Positions 6,430 to 44,869 of a stretch of DNA of 45,034 bases are shown here, piece after piece. The notes under the pieces are model-generated. The model saw only the letters and a program-made list of their open reading frames with translations. It was not told the origin of the DNA and did no database searches. The DNA is from Gammaproteobacteria bacterium (GTDB taxonomy: Bacteria > Pseudomonadota > Gammaproteobacteria > SZUA-140). Position numbers and translations under genes: made by a program. Location: contig JACREF010000020.1 of NCBI GenBank assembly GCA_016218365.1, positions 1 through 45,034 on the forward strand, in the 5' to 3' direction. Each line of letters opens with the position of its first letter. Within the stretch, counting starts at the first letter, position 1.

Positions 6430-9231
<2,802 letters not shown>

Positions 9232-9286
9232 CGTCAGCCTTGAGGTTCCGGAAGGGCCGGCGTCCCCGGTCGCCGGCAATCGGGCC

Positions 9287-9292
9287 ATTATA
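9287..9292 (-). promoter_or_regulatory. Candidate -10 box for acnA
   Basis: A perfect TATAAT on the minus strand lies 55 bp upstream of the acnA start codon, just inside the gap after the cytochrome gene. No good -35 box is seen at 16-18 bp, so an activator may be needed. Confidence 0.4.
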
Positions 9293-9348
9293 ACCACAGT
9301 TGCTGTGCGGCGCCTCCCCGGTGGTGGTGAGACCTGTCAGCGCGGTGA

Positions 9349-9376
9349 AAAAAAGCCCGCTCGGATTGAGCGGGCG
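9349..9376 (-). terminator. Rho-independent terminator of the cytochrome gene
   Basis: On the minus strand the perfect 8-bp stem gcccgctc/gagcgggc with a 5-nt loop is followed by seven Ts. It lies 27 bp past the stop codon of the haem-porin gene and separates it from acnA. Confidence 0.9.
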
Positions 9377-9403
9377 CGGATTACAGCGGGAGTACCGGCG
9401 GTG

Positions 9404-10720
9404 TCAGAACGCCACCGCCAGGTTGACCGAGGTCAGCTGGTCGCCGCCGCCAGTGGCGCTGATTGGCAGCGGGCCGCCGGGTTTGCTGGCATCATGGGCG
9501 TCGCCGAGATAACTGGTGTGCAGGATCGAAACTTGTGAATTATATGAAAACAGGTAACTGGCACCGATGGTCAGCGCATCGTCGTTGCTCATCGTCGCGG
9601 TGCCGTCATCGGCCTGGCGGTAGGCCAGCTGCAGCGTGCCCCGGCCCTCGTTGAAGGCGCCGAGCTCGGCGGTCAGTGTCAAGGCCTGCTTGTCATTCGG
9701 GTTGGGGTTATAGAGATTCGGCACGTCACCCGGCGCGGTCTTAGGCGCCGTCGCAACACTCAGATAGATGCCAAGCGGCATGTTGGAGACACTGCCCTGC
9801 AGCTGCGCATCGACGGCATAGGCCTCGGTGCGCACCCGGTCCATCGGTGCGCCGGCACGTGTTGAGGTCCCGCCCATGTACTGCAGGCCGAGACCCAGGT
9901 CGAAGCCTTCATATATCGGTGTCCATGCAGCGCGCAGATAATTCGACGTGAGATGGCCGGTGGCCGCGGTATCGGAATTCAGCGAGATGTGATTCGGCGA
10001 CCATTTGGCCGCGGTGACAAAATAGCTGTTGTTGGCGACGAACGCGCCCACACCCTCGGCATCGCCACCGTAGTCATTGTAGGTGGTGCCGGCGCCGACC
10101 TGGATATATTGCTGGGCCGAGACCTCGGTGGGATGGACCAGCGTCAATAGATGGTTGCCCACGGCGCCGGTGTTGAGCGTTTCATAGGCATAGGCGGGTC
10201 CGAGGCCGGAGGTGAAGGGCACGAAGCCGGCCGTGGTTGAGCTATTGATGGCATGGATGACTGGAATCTTCAGGCTGGCCAGGAAGCCGGCACCGCCTGC
10301 GGCGCCCGCGCCGCCGACATCCCCTTCCATCAGCGCCCCGGTATGGTCGTTGACACGGCCGGCGACAAACAGCGAGGTTTCACCGGGGATCACCCATTCG
10401 CCATCATCCGAGGTGGCGGCACCTGGTGCAGCCGTGCCGTTGGTCTGCTGGAAGCGGATATTGGTAAACATCGCCATGTTCAGGTTCACAGGCAGCGAGA
10501 AATGATCGGCCTCGATCGTCGGCGTGACGTCCATGGTATAACCGCTGGCCTTGAAGGCGCGACCGAAATTGTTCAGCAGCGGGAAATGCTGGAAGTGGCA
10601 ACTGCTGCAGCTCATACCCATCTGCCGGGCGAAGGCCGGCACGGCCTCGGCGCCACGGGGCAGGATTGCTGAGATGATCACTGCCAATGGCAGCAGCACA
10701 TAAGTTAACGATTTACGCAT
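9404..10720 (-). CDS. Single-haem cytochrome c with predicted outer-membrane barrel (Cyc2-like)
   Basis: The 438-residue precursor starts MRKSLTYVLLPLAVIISAIL and is cleaved probably after AEA. Right behind the signal comes VPAFARQMGMSCSSCH, with one haem c motif at residues 38-42, then HFPLLNNFGRAFKASGY. The remaining 370 or so residues are rich in alternating polar and hydrophobic strands, aromatic girdle residues, Gly, Ser, Thr and Asn, and end in VNLAVAF with a terminal phenylalanine, as outer-membrane barrels do. A short one-haem head fused to a barrel of this size is the architecture of Cyc2 iron oxidases and related porin-cytochromes. The protein could pass electrons across the outer membrane; the donor cannot be told from sequence. 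ATG 10720 was chosen because it begins the signal peptide and follows ggga. It is monocistronic with its own terminator. Confidence 0.7.
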   Translation of the reverse strand: MRKSLTYVLLPLAVIISAILPRGAEAVPAFARQMGMSCSSCHFQHFPLLNNFGRAFKASGYTMDVTPTIEADHFSLPVNLNMAMFTNIRFQQTNGTAAPGAATSDDGEWVIPGETSLFVAGRVNDHTGALMEGDVGGAGAAGGAGFLASLKIPVIHAINSSTTAGFVPFTSGLGPAYAYETLNTGAVGNHLLTLVHPTEVSAQQYIQVGAGTTYNDYGGDAEGVGAFVANNSYFVTAAKWSPNHISLNSDTAATGHLTSNYLRAAWTPIYEGFDLGLGLQYMGGTSTRAGAPMDRVRTEAYAVDAQLQGSVSNMPLGIYLSVATAPKTAPGDVPNLYNPNPNDKQALTLTAELGAFNEGRGTLQLAYRQADDGTATMSNDDALTIGASYLFSYNSQVSILHTSYLGDAHDASKPGGPLPISATGGGDQLTSVNLAVAF

Positions 10721-38038: not shown

Positions 38039-38091
38039 TTCATACGGCGCGGATGTGCGGGCAGGGCATGGTCAATCAACGGGAGGTGTGT

Positions 38092-38451
38092 GTGTATAGA
38101 ACTATTATGGCGGCCATATTCGGCATGGTGATGAGCGGCTGGCCGCTGCTGGCCCAGGCCCATATCCATATGGAGCACTCCACGCCGGCCAAGGATGCGG
38201 TATTGACCGTGGCACCACAGACGGTGCAACTGTCGTTCAATGGCAAGATCTCGGCCGAGTGGGCCAAGATCGAGGTCACCGACGCGCAGGGCCGCCGCGT
38301 TGACGATGGCAAGGTGATCAACAGCGATGATCCGAAGCAGATCCAGATCGGTCTGCCGGGCATCGCTGCCGGTATCTACGAAGTGAAGTGGAGTGCCGTG
38401 TCCGGCGACGGCCATCGCGTCAAGGGTACGTTCACCTTTACTGTCAAATAG
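38092..38451 (+). CDS. copC: Copper-binding periplasmic protein CopC
   Basis: The 119-residue precursor is exported (MYRTIMAAIFGMVMSGWPLL-AQA) and the mature chain begins HIHMEHSTPAKDAVL, so an N-terminal histidine is available for Cu(II), as in CopC. The rest fits the beta-sandwich: VQLSFNGKISAEWAKIEVTD and VSGDGHRVKGTFTFTV with the second copper histidine. I chose GTG 38092 because gggagg at 38081-38086 lies five bases ahead; ATG 38107 would remove the positive residue of the signal peptide. It precedes copD by 7 bp, and the two take up or buffer copper in the envelope. Confidence 0.9.
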   Translation: MYRTIMAAIFGMVMSGWPLLAQAHIHMEHSTPAKDAVLTVAPQTVQLSFNGKISAEWAKIEVTDAQGRRVDDGKVINSDDPKQIQIGLPGIAAGIYEVKWSAVSGDGHRVKGTFTFTVK

Positions 38452-38458
38452 CATCCTG

Positions 38459-39400
38459 ATGTCTGACGGGCTGCTTGCTGTCATCGTCGCCACATTCAAT
38501 CTGGCGGCGCTGGCAACGATCATCGGCGCCACCGTGGGCTGGGTCGTGCTGGTGCCGCGCAGTACACAACACACGGTAGACTGGGCCCGTGACCCGCAGT
38601 GGCTGATCATGGTGGCATGGCTGCTGTTGCTGCTGACCGGCGGCGGCGAACTGTTGCTGCGCAGCGCGGCGCTGGCCGATGTGTCCTTGCAGCAGGCCTG
38701 GCACGAGATCCCCAGGGTGCTGGTGCGCAGCGATTATGGCGTATGGTGGCAGGTGCGTATGGCGCTGTGGATGATGATAGGGGTAGTGCTGATCACGACC
38801 TGGCGGCGTGGCTGGCAGCGGATGGGCTGGGCGTGTTATCAGCTGTTGGCTGGCGCGGTGCTCATCGCATTCATCAGCAGCGCCACCGGTCATGCCGGCG
38901 AGGAAGGCGCGTTTACCACGGCGAATCTGGTCAATACGCTGCATGTCGTCAGTGGTTGTCTGTGGGGCGGCGCAGTGCTGGTATATGTGATGTCGATGCT
39001 GCCACGGTTGCGCCAGCAGCACGCACGACCATTGATCGCGCAGACCGCCAACCGGTTGTCCGGGGTGTCGGCGCTGGCGCTGTCTGGTGTCATGGCCTCC
39101 GGTGTGTATAACGCGGTGCATCAGCTCGACAACCTGGGCCAGCTGACGGCGAGCGATTATGGGCGAGTGCTGCTGCTGAAGCTGGCTGTCGTGGCGGTGA
39201 TGGCAGTGATCGGTGCCACCAATCTGCTGGTGGTTGTGCCGCGGGTGGTGCGCTGGGCGGGGTCTGACACGGCGCCGGGGACGCCGGACATGGCGCAGCG
39301 CTTGCTGGCCATCCTGCGCACCGATACCGTGATCTTCGTCGGCATCCTGATCTGCGCCGCCGTGCTCGGTATCCAGTCACCGCCGGGCCACGCCGGTTAG
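38459..39400 (+). CDS. copD: Copper-resistance membrane protein CopD
   Basis: The 313-residue protein has about eight membrane helices and CopD features: FISSATGHAGEEGAFTTANL, VNTLHVVSGCLWGGAVLVYV and SGVMASGVYNAVHQLDNLG. Histidines in GHAGE and LHVVS are the likely copper ligands. It is the inner-membrane partner of CopC, presumably moving copper to the cytoplasm. ATG 38459 is 7 bp past the copC stop. Its 3' end overlaps the convergent EAL gene by four bases, in which the single ttag holds both stop codons. Confidence 0.9.
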   Translation: MSDGLLAVIVATFNLAALATIIGATVGWVVLVPRSTQHTVDWARDPQWLIMVAWLLLLLTGGGELLLRSAALADVSLQQAWHEIPRVLVRSDYGVWWQVRMALWMMIGVVLITTWRRGWQRMGWACYQLLAGAVLIAFISSATGHAGEEGAFTTANLVNTLHVVSGCLWGGAVLVYVMSMLPRLRQQHARPLIAQTANRLSGVSALALSGVMASGVYNAVHQLDNLGQLTASDYGRVLLLKLAVVAVMAVIGATNLLVVVPRVVRWAGSDTAPGTPDMAQRLLAILRTDTVIFVGILICAAVLGIQSPPGHAG

Positions 39401-42318
39401 CCGCGTTGCTGTGCGGCCTGTTGCTGGCGCGACAGGATCGCGAATGCCTCATGCGGGGGCTGGGGACGGCCGAGGAAGAAACCCTGGGCATAATCGATCT
39501 GGTATCTGCTCAGCAGCCGCAATGCCTGGTCATTATCGACGAATTCGGCGACGGTCTTCTTGCCGAAGCTGCGGGCGACCTGGGCCAGTGCCTGGACCAG
39601 GATCTGATCATCCGGGTTTTCGTGCAGGTTGCGGATAAACGAGCCATCGATCTTGATGTAATCAACCGGCAGTTGCTTCAGCGAATAGAATGATGAGAAG
39701 CCAACGCCGAAATCATCGAGTGAGAATCGGCAGCCCAGCTCCCGGATCGCCTGCATGTAGTCACGGGCCGCGGCAAAGTCCGAGACCGCGGCGGTCTCTG
39801 TGACCTCGAAGATCAGTTTGGACGCATCAAACCTGCCATGTCTGACCCGCTCCTTGATCAGCTCGAATAGATCGGGGTCGTTGAAGGCATGCGCAGACAG
39901 GTTGATGGAAAAGATGGGATGCAGCGAATCGGCGTGCAGCTGCTCGATCTGGTCAATGGCCTTGCTGACCACCAGCCTGTCGATACGATGGATCATCCCG
40001 GCGGATTCTGCGATCTGGATGAAGGCGCCCGGTAGCGTCAGCGAGTCATCGTCGTTCTTCAGGCGGATCAGTGCCTCGAAATGCGTGGTCAGTCCGGAAG
40101 AGATGTCGACGATCGGCTGGTAGTGCAGGACAAACCGGTCCTCGATCAGCGCCTGTTCCAGCCGATCCTTCCAGTAGATGCGCTGCTGCAGCTGTTCGCG
40201 GATGTTGTTGTCATCTGAAAAGAGATGCCAGCGCCCGCGCCCGCCGCCCTTGGCCTGATACATGGCGATGTCGGCATTGGCCAGCAGGTCATACACCGAT
40301 TCCCCATGCTGCGGGAACAGCGCGATGCCGATGCTGGCGGAGATGCGGTGGATGCGTCCGGAGGCGGGGAGTGCGATATTCTTCAGCTGGGCCTCGATCT
40401 GCTTGGCCGTCTCGATGGCCTGTTCGCGGGTCGCCCGCGGCACGACGATGGCGAATTCATCACCGCCCAGCCGGGCGATGACCTCATCGTTTTGCAGCGT
40501 GCTCCCCAGACGCTCGGCGATATTCTTTAGCAGTGCGTCACCGGCATGGTGGCCGCTGCTGTCATTGACATCCTTAAACTGGTCTATGTCCAGATACAGT
40601 AACGCCCCGCTCTGCTGGTCGCGCACCGCCAGATTGATGAGTCTTCCTAATATGGTTTGCAACTGCCTGCGATTGGCCAAGCTGGTCAGCGAGTCATGTT
40701 GGGCCAGCCAAGAGAGTTTGGATTCGGCGATCTTGCGGTCAGTGATGTCGATGCCGACAGACAGCACTTCAGATCCCTCGTTTTCATGCTGAGGAGGCCG
40801 TGAGTGATACCAGGCGATGTAGCGCAGAGTGCCGTCCTTGCACAGCATGTTCAGCTCGTGGTTCAGGTGGCTGCGCCGCCCGGCTACCAGATCGAATATA
40901 TCCTTGAACGCATCCGAGGTGATATCCGTTTGTGAGATATGATTTGCAAACGGACTGCCCAGCAACTCGTCGCTCTGGTATCCCAGCAGTGCTTCACCGT
41001 ACTGGTTGATCATGGTGATCTCGCCACGACTGTTTTGGGTAATGATGATGGCCTGCGCGGTATCGAGCAGGTTGGTGACAAAATCCTTCTGCCGCGAGAT
41101 CTCGTCGGCACGTCGGGCAAGGTCCAGCGTGTAGTCACTGCCGGCCTTTTCGAGCGCTTCAAGCTGGTGAGAGAGCGAGATCGCCGTGTCATTCAGGATG
41201 TCAACTTCATCATCAAGATGATTGGTATCCCGGTTCATTGCCAGTATCGATCGGGCGCGGTCAAATTCCCGGTTTGACAGCAGTGGCAGGCTCGATGCGG
41301 TCTTTTTAAGTCGCGACATCGGCGACCACAGAAAGGCCAGCAGCAGCAGGACCGAGATGGCCAGTCCGGCGGCGGCGGTAATCAGGCTTTCCTTGATGTC
41401 GGCATTGATGTGGGCGATGTCATCGGTGACATCGGTGATCACCACCAGCAGGGTCTTGCTGTTAACAACTCCTCTGAGGGGCAGCGCCTTGGTCTCGTAG
41501 ATACGATCATTGACAGGGATCTGAAGTTCCTGGCCGCTATCAGTACCCAGTGGTGTGTTCAAGGTGGCGCGGGCCAGTATCTGCTGGGATTTTTTCGGAC
41601 TGGTGATGGCAACGATACGATATGTGCTGTTGCCCACCTTCACTGCATTGACATTGCCGTTATGGTTTTGTACTGAATCGTCCTGGACTGCGACCCCGAT
41701 ATCCGTCCCGGACACCTTCTTGAAATCGAGAATGACCTCGGCCAGCGAGCGTCCCAATAGCACCGCGCCAACATTCTGGCCATTGGCCAGCAGCGGGACG
41801 ATCGCATACTGGATACAATCCTGCGAGCAGTCCAGCGTTGATGTCGGGGTTTCATTTTCGTTGACCTTCCATACCCAGCCCAGGATCGGACTGGGTATGG
41901 TTGCAGAGCGCAACGTCCCGTCGCCCCATGATCCCAGCAGCTGGTTGGACTTTGAGTAGATCCGCAACAGGTTGATACCCACATTGATCTGCAGGCCGGG
42001 CCAGTGTTGATTGAGGCTGCCGGTCACGCGCCGTGCATCACGGCTCAGCAATGCGGCATCCATGCCCGACAGTGACGGAATGATGCCGCCAATCTGCAGC
42101 AAGCGCTGGGCCGAGCGGTCAATCAGTCCTTCGGCATGGACGGCGTATTGCTGATAGACCTTTTCATGCTGCTCCTGATACTGGTGGCTCAGGTTGAGGT
42201 AATTCAGCGCTGATAATGAGCCAGCGATGATGAAGGCGATGATCACGGAAAGGATGATAGCCTTCCATTTCAGACTGAAAAACGGTCGCGATCGCGCTTG
42301 GGGTGTCCGTGTCGTCAT
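39397..42318 (-). CDS. Membrane sensor with PAS-GGDEF-EAL domains
   Basis: The 973-residue protein has one helix at about 20-40, a periplasmic sensor at 41-310 that resembles a double CACHE fold (with a CSQDC pair at 164-168), a second helix at 311-332, a helical linker, a PAS domain (about 412-530), a GGDEF domain with intact GGDEF (618-622) and an EAL domain with intact EAL (748-750), DDFGVG and YIKIDGSFI. Both a c-di-GMP cyclase and a phosphodiesterase activity are possible; the net sign cannot be read. MTTRTPQARSRPFFSLKWKA is the cytoplasmic start. It follows the porin gene by 33 bp on the minus strand, so it is the last gene of the four-gene cluster. Confidence 0.95.
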   Translation of the reverse strand: MTTRTPQARSRPFFSLKWKAIILSVIIAFIIAGSLSALNYLNLSHQYQEQHEKVYQQYAVHAEGLIDRSAQRLLQIGGIIPSLSGMDAALLSRDARRVTGSLNQHWPGLQINVGINLLRIYSKSNQLLGSWGDGTLRSATIPSPILGWVWKVNENETPTSTLDCSQDCIQYAIVPLLANGQNVGAVLLGRSLAEVILDFKKVSGTDIGVAVQDDSVQNHNGNVNAVKVGNSTYRIVAITSPKKSQQILARATLNTPLGTDSGQELQIPVNDRIYETKALPLRGVVNSKTLLVVITDVTDDIAHINADIKESLITAAAGLAISVLLLLAFLWSPMSRLKKTASSLPLLSNREFDRARSILAMNRDTNHLDDEVDILNDTAISLSHQLEALEKAGSDYTLDLARRADEISRQKDFVTNLLDTAQAIIITQNSRGEITMINQYGEALLGYQSDELLGSPFANHISQTDITSDAFKDIFDLVAGRRSHLNHELNMLCKDGTLRYIAWYHSRPPQHENEGSEVLSVGIDITDRKIAESKLSWLAQHDSLTSLANRRQLQTILGRLINLAVRDQQSGALLYLDIDQFKDVNDSSGHHAGDALLKNIAERLGSTLQNDEVIARLGGDEFAIVVPRATREQAIETAKQIEAQLKNIALPASGRIHRISASIGIALFPQHGESVYDLLANADIAMYQAKGGGRGRWHLFSDDNNIREQLQQRIYWKDRLEQALIEDRFVLHYQPIVDISSGLTTHFEALIRLKNDDDSLTLPGAFIQIAESAGMIHRIDRLVVSKAIDQIEQLHADSLHPIFSINLSAHAFNDPDLFELIKERVRHGRFDASKLIFEVTETAAVSDFAAARDYMQAIRELGCRFSLDDFGVGFSSFYSLKQLPVDYIKIDGSFIRNLHENPDDQILVQALAQVARSFGKKTVAEFVDNDQALRLLSRYQIDYAQGFFLGRPQPPHEAFAILSRQQQAAQQRG

Positions 42319-42351
42319 CCGGTGACTGCCTGTTGGGTGGTGGATGTGTTA

Positions 42352-43578
42352 TCAGAAGCGGTAGGAGATCAGCACGGATAACATGTCCCAGCCGCGGGTT
42401 GTCGGCTGCAGATTATCCAGTGCCGGCAGCCAGGCCGTGCCGTCCACATGATGCCATTCGCCGCGCAGCAACAGCGACGGGGTGATAGTGTAGCCTGTAC
42501 CGAGTGTGAGGTCCTTGGCGTAACGTCGGTGCGCCGGTGTGCTGGGGTTCAGCGTCGCGTATTGTTCCCCGTTGCGATCGGAGCGGTCGACGACGGTTGT
42601 ATCATAGCGCGCGAAGATATCGTGCCGGCTGCTCAGCCGATAGCTGCCCTGCAGATAATAGCTGTCGCCAGTGAGGCTGGTGTTGATGGCAGGGGAGAAA
42701 TTGGCGTATTTGAAATGTCGCAGGGCGTACTCCGAGGTCAGGCTCCATGACTCACTGTTGTATTGGGCCGAGACGATGGTAGGTTCGAAGGTGATGTCTC
42801 CGGCGGGGACAGGATCTATGGCGCCCGGGGCATAACTGATATTGGCCTGGATGGTGCTCAGTGCCAGGCGTACCTCGCCGCCATTGTGTTCCCATAATAC
42901 CCGGCCTAGGAATGAGGTGTTGGCCTCGAGGCCGCCGGGGAGATCGGTTCTGAGCAAGGCAACCTCAATCTCCTTGTTGTCCACCCTGGGCGCCGCTGCT
43001 CCAAGTTGCCATTGCAGTTCATCACTGTTCCAGCGCCGCTCGCCATACAGCTGGAAGCCATCTGATGAGATGGCAAGGTCGCGGGTGCGATCAAAATAGA
43101 TTGATTGCGGCAGCAATATGCTTGGCCGGGTAAAGGCCATGTCGCGGGTTTCATTATAGAAGCCGAGCGGATTCAGGATCCGGCCGGCCCTGACACCCAG
43201 ACGCTGGTTATCTGTGGTCAGCATTGTATAGTCGATCAGGCCGTAATCCAGTCGTGCGCGGCCATTATCACTTTCTCCGGCGCGACGCAGCAATAGCTGT
43301 CCGGCCAGGCGCAGGCGTGATGAGGTGGTGGTCGTGGAGCCATTCAGGCCCAGTTCGGTAAAACCAAAATTATCGTTGCTGCTGGTTTCACCGAAGAAAT
43401 TGTTGTCCGAGGTGGTGATGAATGACTGGCTGGCAAAGCCGTGCAGCTGCAACAGGTTGCTGCTGTCCAGCGCCAACGCCGCAGGGCCAGACAGGACCAT
43501 CCCGGCCAGCAATGCCAGGCGTAGCATCGTCAGGCGACAGCTGCGATTAATTAATGGAGATTTCGATGACATGATCAT
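42352..43578 (-). CDS. Outer-membrane porin-like protein
   Basis: The 408-residue precursor has a signal peptide (LRLALLAGMVLSGPAALA) and a mature part of alternating amphipathic strands with many Tyr, Arg, Asn and Ser, ending in DMLSVLISYRF with a terminal phenylalanine recognised by BAM. LDYGLIDYTMLTTDNQRLGV and VRAGRILNPLGFYNETRDMA resemble phosphate- or anion-type porins. ATG 43578 was chosen because aggag lies eight bases ahead; in-frame ATGs at 43572 and 43527 are possible. The start lies 32 bp inside the preceding mini substrate-binding gene, so their translation is coupled. I infer a barrel serving the same signal or solute as the neighbour. Confidence 0.85.
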   Translation of the reverse strand: MIMSSKSPLINRSCRLTMLRLALLAGMVLSGPAALALDSSNLLQLHGFASQSFITTSDNNFFGETSSNDNFGFTELGLNGSTTTTSSRLRLAGQLLLRRAGESDNGRARLDYGLIDYTMLTTDNQRLGVRAGRILNPLGFYNETRDMAFTRPSILLPQSIYFDRTRDLAISSDGFQLYGERRWNSDELQWQLGAAAPRVDNKEIEVALLRTDLPGGLEANTSFLGRVLWEHNGGEVRLALSTIQANISYAPGAIDPVPAGDITFEPTIVSAQYNSESWSLTSEYALRHFKYANFSPAINTSLTGDSYYLQGSYRLSSRHDIFARYDTTVVDRSDRNGEQYATLNPSTPAHRRYAKDLTLGTGYTITPSLLLRGEWHHVDGTAWLPALDNLQPTTRGWDMLSVLISYRF

Positions 43579-43993
43579 TTATCAAGCTCCTCTTGATGTA
43601 GCCGATCGCCCCTGGTGTGGCGGCTATCCTTGCCAGCATCTCCTCTTCACTGGCCACCTGGATGGGCGCCTGGCCGGTCCCTGAAAACACCAGTCTGTCC
43701 CACGCCCAGCGCAGCTGATACGGGAACATCCCCAGCACCTCCTTGGAAAATTTGATATGGGCGGGTTGATTGTCGGCCAACACATACACTCTGACCGGTA
43801 GCTTATTGTTCCAATATTGCAGGCGCATGCCGAAGATGGTGCGTGCGGTACTCAACGAGACCTGTTTGATGTTGATCTGAGGATTGGCGATGATGGCGTA
43901 TTCGCTGCTGTCGGCGCGTGCGATCAGTGGAAGGCACAGCAGGACGATCAGGCTGGCCAGTACTGCTCCAATGATCTTTGGTGGAGGATTCAT
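43547..43993 (-). CDS. Mini periplasmic binding protein (PstS/PBP-like half)
   Basis: The 148-residue precursor starts MNPPPKIIGAVLASLIVLLC and is exported. The mature part is one lobe of a periplasmic binding protein: NIKQVSLSTARTIFGMRLQY, SKEVLGMFPYQLRWAWDRLV and IAATPGAIGYIKRS match small phosphate-ABC-transporter-type binding proteins. A full PstS is about twice as long, so this looks like the small, single-lobe kind seen next to sensors rather than a transport component; no permease or ATPase is present. It overlaps the acyltransferase gene as ATGA and the porin gene by 32 bp. Confidence 0.85.
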   Translation of the reverse strand: MNPPPKIIGAVLASLIVLLCLPLIARADSSEYAIIANPQINIKQVSLSTARTIFGMRLQYWNNKLPVRVYVLADNQPAHIKFSKEVLGMFPYQLRWAWDRLVFSGTGQAPIQVASEEEMLARIAATPGAIGYIKRSLINDHVIEISIN

Positions 43994-44829
43994 CGGGTTC
44001 TGTGGAAGCTCTTGTACTCGATTGCGGTGCGGTGTCCCGATATTTTATTGAATGCTGCCGGGCCGATGATGTTATGCAAACGGGTGGCAGCCGGCGCCCT
44101 CCATAATGTCCCGCAATCGGTGAACAGCTCCCACAGCTCACGGTTCTGGGAATAGATCGCCGACAGGATCTGGTCGACATTTCCGAGATAGGGGCGGCGA
44201 TTGCCATGATAGTTGACGATCGGACCGATCGGATTCATGACGATGCCGAACTTTTTCAGCCGCGTGCACAACGCTGGCTCCATGCCAGCATACCAGTGGG
44301 TGATGTTATGTTCGGACGTCATGCGCATGATGGCCGTGAGCAAGCCCAGCAACGGGTGAGGGTAGCCGCGTCGTATCTTGCCCCGGGTGGCGGGATCTCC
44401 AGCATTGCCATACAGCGTGGCCTGTTCGCCACGGCGTTTTCTGAAATCCTGGATCAGGGACAATCTCGATATCTCTGCAATGCGCCGGCGATCCGGTTGT
44501 TCAGTACGGACGATGCCATGGTTGATGGTGCTGGCGGTGTATTTCTCTACCGGGAATGGCAGGGCGGCGTTGCTCGGATCGCTGAGGATCAGTCGCACGA
44601 TACCGACGTAGCGGTTTGACGGCCGATGCAGCAGCAGGCACTGGACAGAGTGCTGATCATATTCATCGGATTCGATCTGGCGCGGGTATTTCTGCAGATC
44701 AAAATCCGGCACCTGCTCCTCGACACAGTAGATCTGATAGCGAAGTTTATAGGCCTGTTCGATCAGCGCCGGTGTGGTGGCAGGCACCACCCGGAAATAG
44801 TCATTAACCTCAGCAATAAGTTTGTTCAT
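43990..44829 (-). CDS. PEP-CTERM/exosortase-associated acyltransferase
   Basis: The 279-residue cytoplasmic protein is a LuxI-like/GNAT-fold N-acyl amino acid synthase of the type found with exosortase systems. AYKLRYQIYCVEEQVPDFDL is the conserved N-terminal loop, RIAEISRLSLIQDFRKRRG carries the E-x-SR motif, and the C-terminal half (MTSEHNITHWYAGMEPAL, LHNIIGPAA) is also typical. Such enzymes join acyl chains to amino acids, which can serve as signals. ATG 44829 (MNKLIAEVNDYFRVVPA) is the start. No PEP-CTERM or exosortase gene is in the window. The gene heads the minus-strand cluster; a TATAAT at 44864-44869 may be its -10. Confidence 0.85.
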   Translation of the reverse strand: MNKLIAEVNDYFRVVPATTPALIEQAYKLRYQIYCVEEQVPDFDLQKYPRQIESDEYDQHSVQCLLLHRPSNRYVGIVRLILSDPSNAALPFPVEKYTASTINHGIVRTEQPDRRRIAEISRLSLIQDFRKRRGEQATLYGNAGDPATRGKIRRGYPHPLLGLLTAIMRMTSEHNITHWYAGMEPALCTRLKKFGIVMNPIGPIVNYHGNRRPYLGNVDQILSAIYSQNRELWELFTDCGTLWRAPAATRLHNIIGPAAFNKISGHRTAIEYKSFHRTR

Positions 44830-44863: not shown

Positions 44864-44869
44864 ATTATA
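44864..44869 (-). promoter_or_regulatory. Candidate -10 box for the acyltransferase cluster
   Basis: A perfect TATAAT on the minus strand lies 34 bp ahead of the acyltransferase ATG in an A+T-rich leader. No convincing -35 box is visible at 16-18 bp. Confidence 0.4.

Follow-up and report, generated by a model that had tools for sequence, protein, structure and literature searches.

Results

The window analyzed here comprises the whole of contig JACREF010000020.1 (45,034 nt) from a 2.26-Mb gammaproteobacterial genome and carries four open frames on its minus strand in one tight run (44829-43990, 43993-43547, 43578-42352, and 42318-39397). These encode, in order, an acyltransferase of 279 aa, a small exported relative of periplasmic binding proteins of 148 aa (hereafter mini-PBP), a predicted porin of 408 aa, and a membrane c-di-GMP sensor of 973 aa. 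The acyltransferase and mini-PBP genes overlap by 4 bp, the mini-PBP and porin genes by 32 bp, and the porin and sensor genes are separated by a gap of 33 bp, a layout that agrees to the base with the one given in a preliminary description of this DNA. The 32-bp overlap (43547..43578) is of exactly this length in 42 of 69 relatives, as computed from longest-frame starts, and likely couples the translation of the two genes. The preliminary description had also proposed a single transcript, a view that we share because of the gene overlaps and the conserved gene order, although a promoter scan upstream of the acyltransferase gene gave no sigma-70-like site. A TATAAT hexamer is found on the minus strand upstream of this gene (44864-44869), with no full promoter match. 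On the other flank of the unit lies a convergent copD gene, which belongs to a CopC-CopD pair (38053-39400) and shares 4 bp with the end of the GGDEF-EAL gene. Within the window, which ends 205 bp upstream of the acyltransferase gene, genes for an ABC permease or ATPase were not seen beside the mini-PBP gene.

The acyltransferase (43990..44829, minus strand) scores 245 bits against TIGR03694, far above the cut-off of 112 for membership in this family, and is the sole TIGR03694 match in its own genome. Residues R30, D55, D58, R79, E119, S121, and R122, which correspond to the LuxI/NAS signature R, D, D, R, E-x-S-R, are kept in 68-70 of 70 relatives. Judging from these features, the protein is likely an N-acyl amino acid synthase, which accords with its earlier designation as a signal-type acyltransferase. 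What bacterial N-acyl amino acids do in nature is still described as unclear (PMC4897644).

The mini-PBP (43547..43993, minus strand), the mature lobe of which would comprise residues ~30-148 (43906-43550), yields a weak match to Pfam PBP_like_2 (E 0.015) and a profile match to PstS at E 1.6e-10. Its AlphaFold model (pLDDT 93.6) aligns with residues 80-188 of the 241 residues of PstS 4q8r at a Z of 16.3 and an rmsd of 1.5 over 105 residues, and both the profile and the structural matches indicate common ancestry with PstS. In the model, lobe 2 (the middle lobe) stands alone, and lobe 1, with which it would form a cleft, is missing. Furthermore, the PstS phosphate loop REDGSGTRD has been replaced by LADNQPAHI in the profile alignment, such that D-x-x-P-x-H is aligned where the anion-binding S-G-T-R would be expected. 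Since the protein is a single lobe devoid of the phosphate loop, flytrap-type ligand binding is unlikely, and the lost loop makes PstS-like phosphate sensing less likely as well. The preliminary description had correctly recognized a one-lobe binding protein with no transporter beside it, but its suggestion that a small molecule is bound in the periplasm is disfavored, because only lobe 2 of PstS is present, its anion loop has been replaced, and its steadiest partner is a barrel. These same three features suggest that the mini-PBP serves as a protein-protein relay part. No match was obtained to the YfiR family PF13689 at E values up to 10; YfiR entries were also absent among the matches listed in the structural comparison, an absence that excludes nothing.

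When examining the neighborhoods of mini-PBP genes, we found a barrel-like gene adjoining on the same strand for 89 of 100 close members and 13 of 23 distant ones, compared to 25 of 944 (2.6%) other long frames, the rule for calling barrel-like genes being a crude one. The transducer neighbor varies between GGDEF/EAL proteins, chemoreceptors (MCP), which are found beside many of the relatives, and histidine kinases. It is evident that the barrel is the steadiest partner of the mini-PBP, whereas the output is the variable part. The genome under study encodes three further mini-PBPs, one of them in a metabolic setting: one lies beside a chemoreceptor and a 387-aa gene (L035:4767-8382), one next to a barrel-sized gene of 385 aa (L036:5697-7304), and one next to genes for a histidine kinase and an NtrC-type regulator (L037:6444-10335). 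Other genomes encode many mini-PBPs (G122 and G253, with up to ten in G122). At L212:1109-4265, the mini-PBP lobe forms the end of a 674-aa protein that combines a hydrophobic helix with a long linker of low complexity and is encoded adjacent to a 368-aa barrel-like gene; this protein looks like a TolA/TonB-style bridge and would fit an envelope-spanning part.

The porin (42352..43578, minus strand) matches no Pfam or NCBIfam family, and no relatives were found in the PDB by sequence. Its AlphaFold model (pLDDT 91.1) is a barrel of 16 strands, in keeping with the outer membrane barrel proposed previously, and its nearest Foldseek matches are Omp32, DcaP, OmpT, and OprP/OprO, with OmpF-type general porins scoring similarly. 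In porins, the loop after strand 5 forms the constriction. The predicted loop at this L3 position, between strands 5 and 6 (residues 136-170; 43069..43173), is the best conserved segment of the protein (mean column conservation 0.80 vs. 0.34-0.71 in all other segments) and contains the invariant residues R145 and R166. Both the strand number and the placement of this loop are those of a porin, as far as the model is concerned.

The last gene of the unit (39397..42318, minus strand) encodes a putative inner membrane c-di-GMP enzyme with the Pfam domain order dCache_3-PAS-GGDEF-EAL, thereby confirming the membrane GGDEF/EAL sensor of the preliminary description. Hydrophobic helices at residues ~12-43 and 310-335 flank the dCache_3 domain (residues 49-301; 41416..42174; E 1.3e-22), a predicted periplasmic sensor. 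The G-G-D-E-F signature of the GGDEF domain (residues 539-695; 40234..40704) is intact and kept in 68-70 of 70 relatives, while the catalytic residues of the EAL domain (residues 718-952; 39463..40167), i.e. E, N, E, DD, K, E, and Q, are intact and kept in 69-70 of 70. With both catalytic sets intact and a sensor domain placed between two helices, the protein resembles a bifunctional, MbaA-like enzyme and could be able to both make and break c-di-GMP. The dCache domain is its least conserved domain (mean identity 0.36 vs. 0.63 for GGDEF), so it may have different partners or ligands in different lineages.

An alignment of close mini-PBPs was scanned against 84,980 species genomes, which yielded 445 relatives, the best 80 of which were used for locus comparisons. 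Among these 80, there are 69 loci having both a mini-PBP and a porin; in 55 of the 69, the gene immediately upstream, on the same strand, encodes an acyltransferase, and a GGDEF-EAL protein follows the porin in nearly all. Most of the loci come from Nitrosomonas, Nitrosospira, and Nitrosovibrio, joined by Nitrotoga, Methylophaga, Halochromatium, Thiodiazotropha, Halomonas, Billgrantia, Nitrospirota, and one Desulfofustis. The mini-PBP-porin-GGDEF/EAL core is found across Gammaproteobacteria, Nitrosomonadaceae, Nitrospirota, and Desulfobacterota, its order (mini-PBP-porin-dCache/GGDEF/EAL) is kept in nearly all close relatives, and it often occurs without the synthase. The preliminary description had staked its proposal upon at least three of the genes recurring together elsewhere, which is far exceeded by an order and spacing that recur in dozens of genomes. 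Some loci depart from this pattern. At L166, two mini-PBP-porin pairs stand in tandem (7641-9531 and on), followed by one dCache/GGDEF/EAL gene, and at two other loci (L089:7557-9911 and L142), two acyltransferase genes lie in a row ahead of the mini-PBP gene. At L071:7247-12205, where a GGDEF-EAL gene was not seen, an acyltransferase gene is followed by genes encoding an amidotransferase of the WbuX type, a fatty-acid ligase, and a thioester reductase, and the locus looks like a small biosynthetic cluster. A possible synthase fusion within a 1379-aa frame of another genome (G080) is not claimed, since that genome has overlapping long frames on the two strands.

We also relied upon a sample of 369 genomes spread over the class. 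A close mini-PBP is encoded by 30 of them, 20 of which also hold the acyltransferase, and the two genes lie within 6 kb of each other in 12 of these 20 genomes, against 0.1 expected. The Fisher test of co-occurrence took 41 of the 47 synthase genomes, with six weaker or split matches left out. Merely incidental neighbors are ruled out by the recurring gene order and by these 12 adjacencies. Four arrangements of the synthase gene occur: it is upstream in the same orientation, divergent, or placed after the GGDEF-EAL gene in the same orientation, and in one case the end is inverted; in most loci it is the first gene of the unit. On the acyltransferase tree, linkage to the core requires ~7 changes, and well-supported branches force at least 2. 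The porin tree agrees, both being quick trees built without bootstrap. Because of these forced changes, we conclude that the synthase joined the core, or was lost from it, more than once and at least twice.

NCBI names the TIGR03694 acyltransferase “exosortase system-associated,” and N-acyl amino acid synthases were reportedly tied to PEP-CTERM/exosortase by Craig, Cherry and Brady in 2011 (J Bacteriol 193:5707). Such a name implies that the family occurs only together with an exosortase, which is not what we observed. Among the 12 genomes with a linked acyltransferase, an exosortase (PF09721) is present in 5 and absent from 7, two of the latter being closed genomes, whereas all 8 genomes with the acyltransferase elsewhere encode one (one-sided hypergeometric P ~0.01). 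In addition, three Halomonadaceae with the order mini-PBP-porin-GGDEF/EAL-acyltransferase have acyltransferases that all score above the TIGR03694 cut-off and no exosortase (PF09721). This result questions the name of the family, rather than the membership of the protein in the window. Since 7 of the 12 linked genomes have no exosortase, “exosortase-associated” is misleading for the linked subgroup, and, taken with the three Halomonadaceae, these genomes indicate that the tie between synthase and sensor is independent of protein sorting.

Discussion

The current study identifies four genes that are a real conserved unit, and several inferences can be made regarding their function. In our estimation, there is about an even chance (probability ~0.5) that the unit is an envelope relay in three layers, through which c-di-GMP is set and to which a signal-type synthase is attached. 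The relay reading is in keeping with the steadiness of the lobe and porin as a pair and the variability of the output. An input pair would be constituted by a selective outer membrane porin of 16 strands and the secreted PstS lobe in the periplasm, with the lobe presumably moving back and forth between the porin and the dCache domain carried by the inner membrane GGDEF-EAL protein. Binding or release of the lobe would then shift the balance between c-di-GMP synthesis and breakdown, in a manner similar to that of YfiR, which acts between YfiB and YfiN, and the output might be matrix or biofilm. The complete circuit envisaged by the preliminary description survives as one functional unit, but not as an obligate one: the core often lacks the synthase, and consequently the product of the synthase cannot be the sole cue to which the core responds.

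Several other explanations merit consideration. In a classic acyl-signal circuit, the product would exit the cell, re-enter via the porin, be bound by the mini-PBP, and be sensed by dCache, such that c-di-GMP tracks cell density. The LuxI signature residues of the synthase and its repeated recruitment beside the sensor, also outside exosortase genomes, would be in accord with such a circuit, yet it appears rather unlikely for a mini-PBP that has neither lobe 1 nor the PstS anion loop and for a core that so often occurs alone. Moreover, an acyl amino acid with a long chain would have difficulty traversing a 16-strand porin, the eyelet of which is ill-suited to long acyl chains. An unlikely scenario is also the sensing of a nutrient anion, in which a small anion enters through the porin and the lobe, either dimeric or together with dCache, forms a complete binding site to report an oxyanion or carboxylate. 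The PstS ancestry of the mini-PBP, the invariant basic residues R145 and R166 of the porin loop, and the similarity of the porin fold to a set including the anion porins Omp32, DcaP, and OprP/OprO are consistent with this scenario; conversely, the phosphate-coordinating loop has been replaced, and general porins such as OmpF score similarly in Foldseek.

It is plausible, though less likely than not, that the synthase is no signal source but an output of the relay or a partner regulated together with it; the relay would sense an outside solute or the envelope state while the synthase supplies a matrix amphiphile or surface lipid made together with EPS. The existence of the core without a synthase is compatible with this possibility, as is the Nitrosomonas unit, which sits directly behind PrsR, TIGR03098, TIGR03099, and a TIGR03108-like gene, i.e. 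PEP-CTERM/EPS genes; likewise, an annotated relative of the synthase is required for a polysaccharide band in Methylomonas LW13 (PMC11072679). Both the locus position and this mutant provide an indirect link between the unit and polysaccharide. However, the link between synthase and sensor persists in Halomonadaceae and other exosortase-free genomes, and the synthase gene comes first in most loci. We consider it highly improbable that the synthase is an ordinary PEP-CTERM/exosortase component that belongs to protein sorting and has incidental neighbors. Such an assignment is suggested by the family name, by the exosortase that adjoins PrsR on another contig of the genome under study, and by the exosortases of all 8 genomes having the synthase elsewhere, but it would leave the exosortase-free linked genomes and Halomonadaceae, as well as the excess of adjacencies, unaccounted for.

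A relay of the kind we favor would have precedents, since both the coupling of a PBP to a GGDEF/EAL protein (NspS-MbaA) and relays from the outer membrane to a cyclase (YfiBNR) are already known. NspS, a polyamine-binding protein, has the full set of two lobes, and to our knowledge the NspS-MbaA pair includes neither a porin nor an acyl synthase. NspS of Vibrio cholerae is a PBP without its own transporter that acts on the membrane GGDEF-EAL sensor MbaA, thereby setting c-di-GMP and biofilm (PMC8967002, PMC5646818). The unit described here seems to share this pairing of a transporter-less PBP with a membrane GGDEF-EAL sensor. Much like our unit, YfiBNR of Pseudomonas aeruginosa encodes in one operon an outer membrane part, a small periplasmic single-lobe part, and an inner membrane c-di-GMP enzyme. 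YfiN is not known to have an EAL domain. YfiBNR further differs in having no synthase and an OmpA-like lipoprotein as its outer membrane partner, rather than a predicted 16-strand porin. YfiR, which acts between an outer membrane protein and a membrane cyclase, is a single lobe of the type I PBP fold (PMC4655355) and belongs to PF13689, unlike the PstS lobe of the mini-PBP. For this reason, the resemblance is probably one of design and not of descent.

As for the synthase, the acyltransferase is by score a TIGR03694 protein like the N-acyl amino acid synthases of PEP-CTERM/exosortase systems, but its partner here is the mini-PBP-porin-GGDEF/EAL core, which it also accompanies in the absence of an exosortase. 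Similarly, its signature residues are those of LuxI-type quorum sensing, whereas the unit has no LuxR and its readout would pass from the envelope to c-di-GMP. The earlier statement that no system of this composition has been described holds for the open-access literature searched, in which we found no paper on these genes together and no description of a single PstS lobe, a dedicated porin, or a recruited acyl synthase in such a role; it should be tempered in that two systems of this kind, NspS-MbaA and YfiBNR, have already been described.

It is conceivable, if doubtful, that the relay exemplifies a widespread type of envelope receptor not described so far, with a single PstS lobe and a dedicated porin as an input pair that can be exchanged among outputs of the GGDEF/EAL, chemoreceptor, and histidine kinase kinds. 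The LuxI-type synthase would have been recruited several times, and its own acyl amino acid would set c-di-GMP, thus amounting to c-di-GMP-based quorum sensing at the envelope in nitrifiers and their relatives. A single PstS lobe and a porin are, in any case, found with three kinds of output, as would befit a reusable input pair. Genome order also ties a member of the N-acyl amino acid synthase family to a receptor with a defined output, and as the unit is present in the well-studied Nitrosomonas europaea, the question of its role is directly testable.
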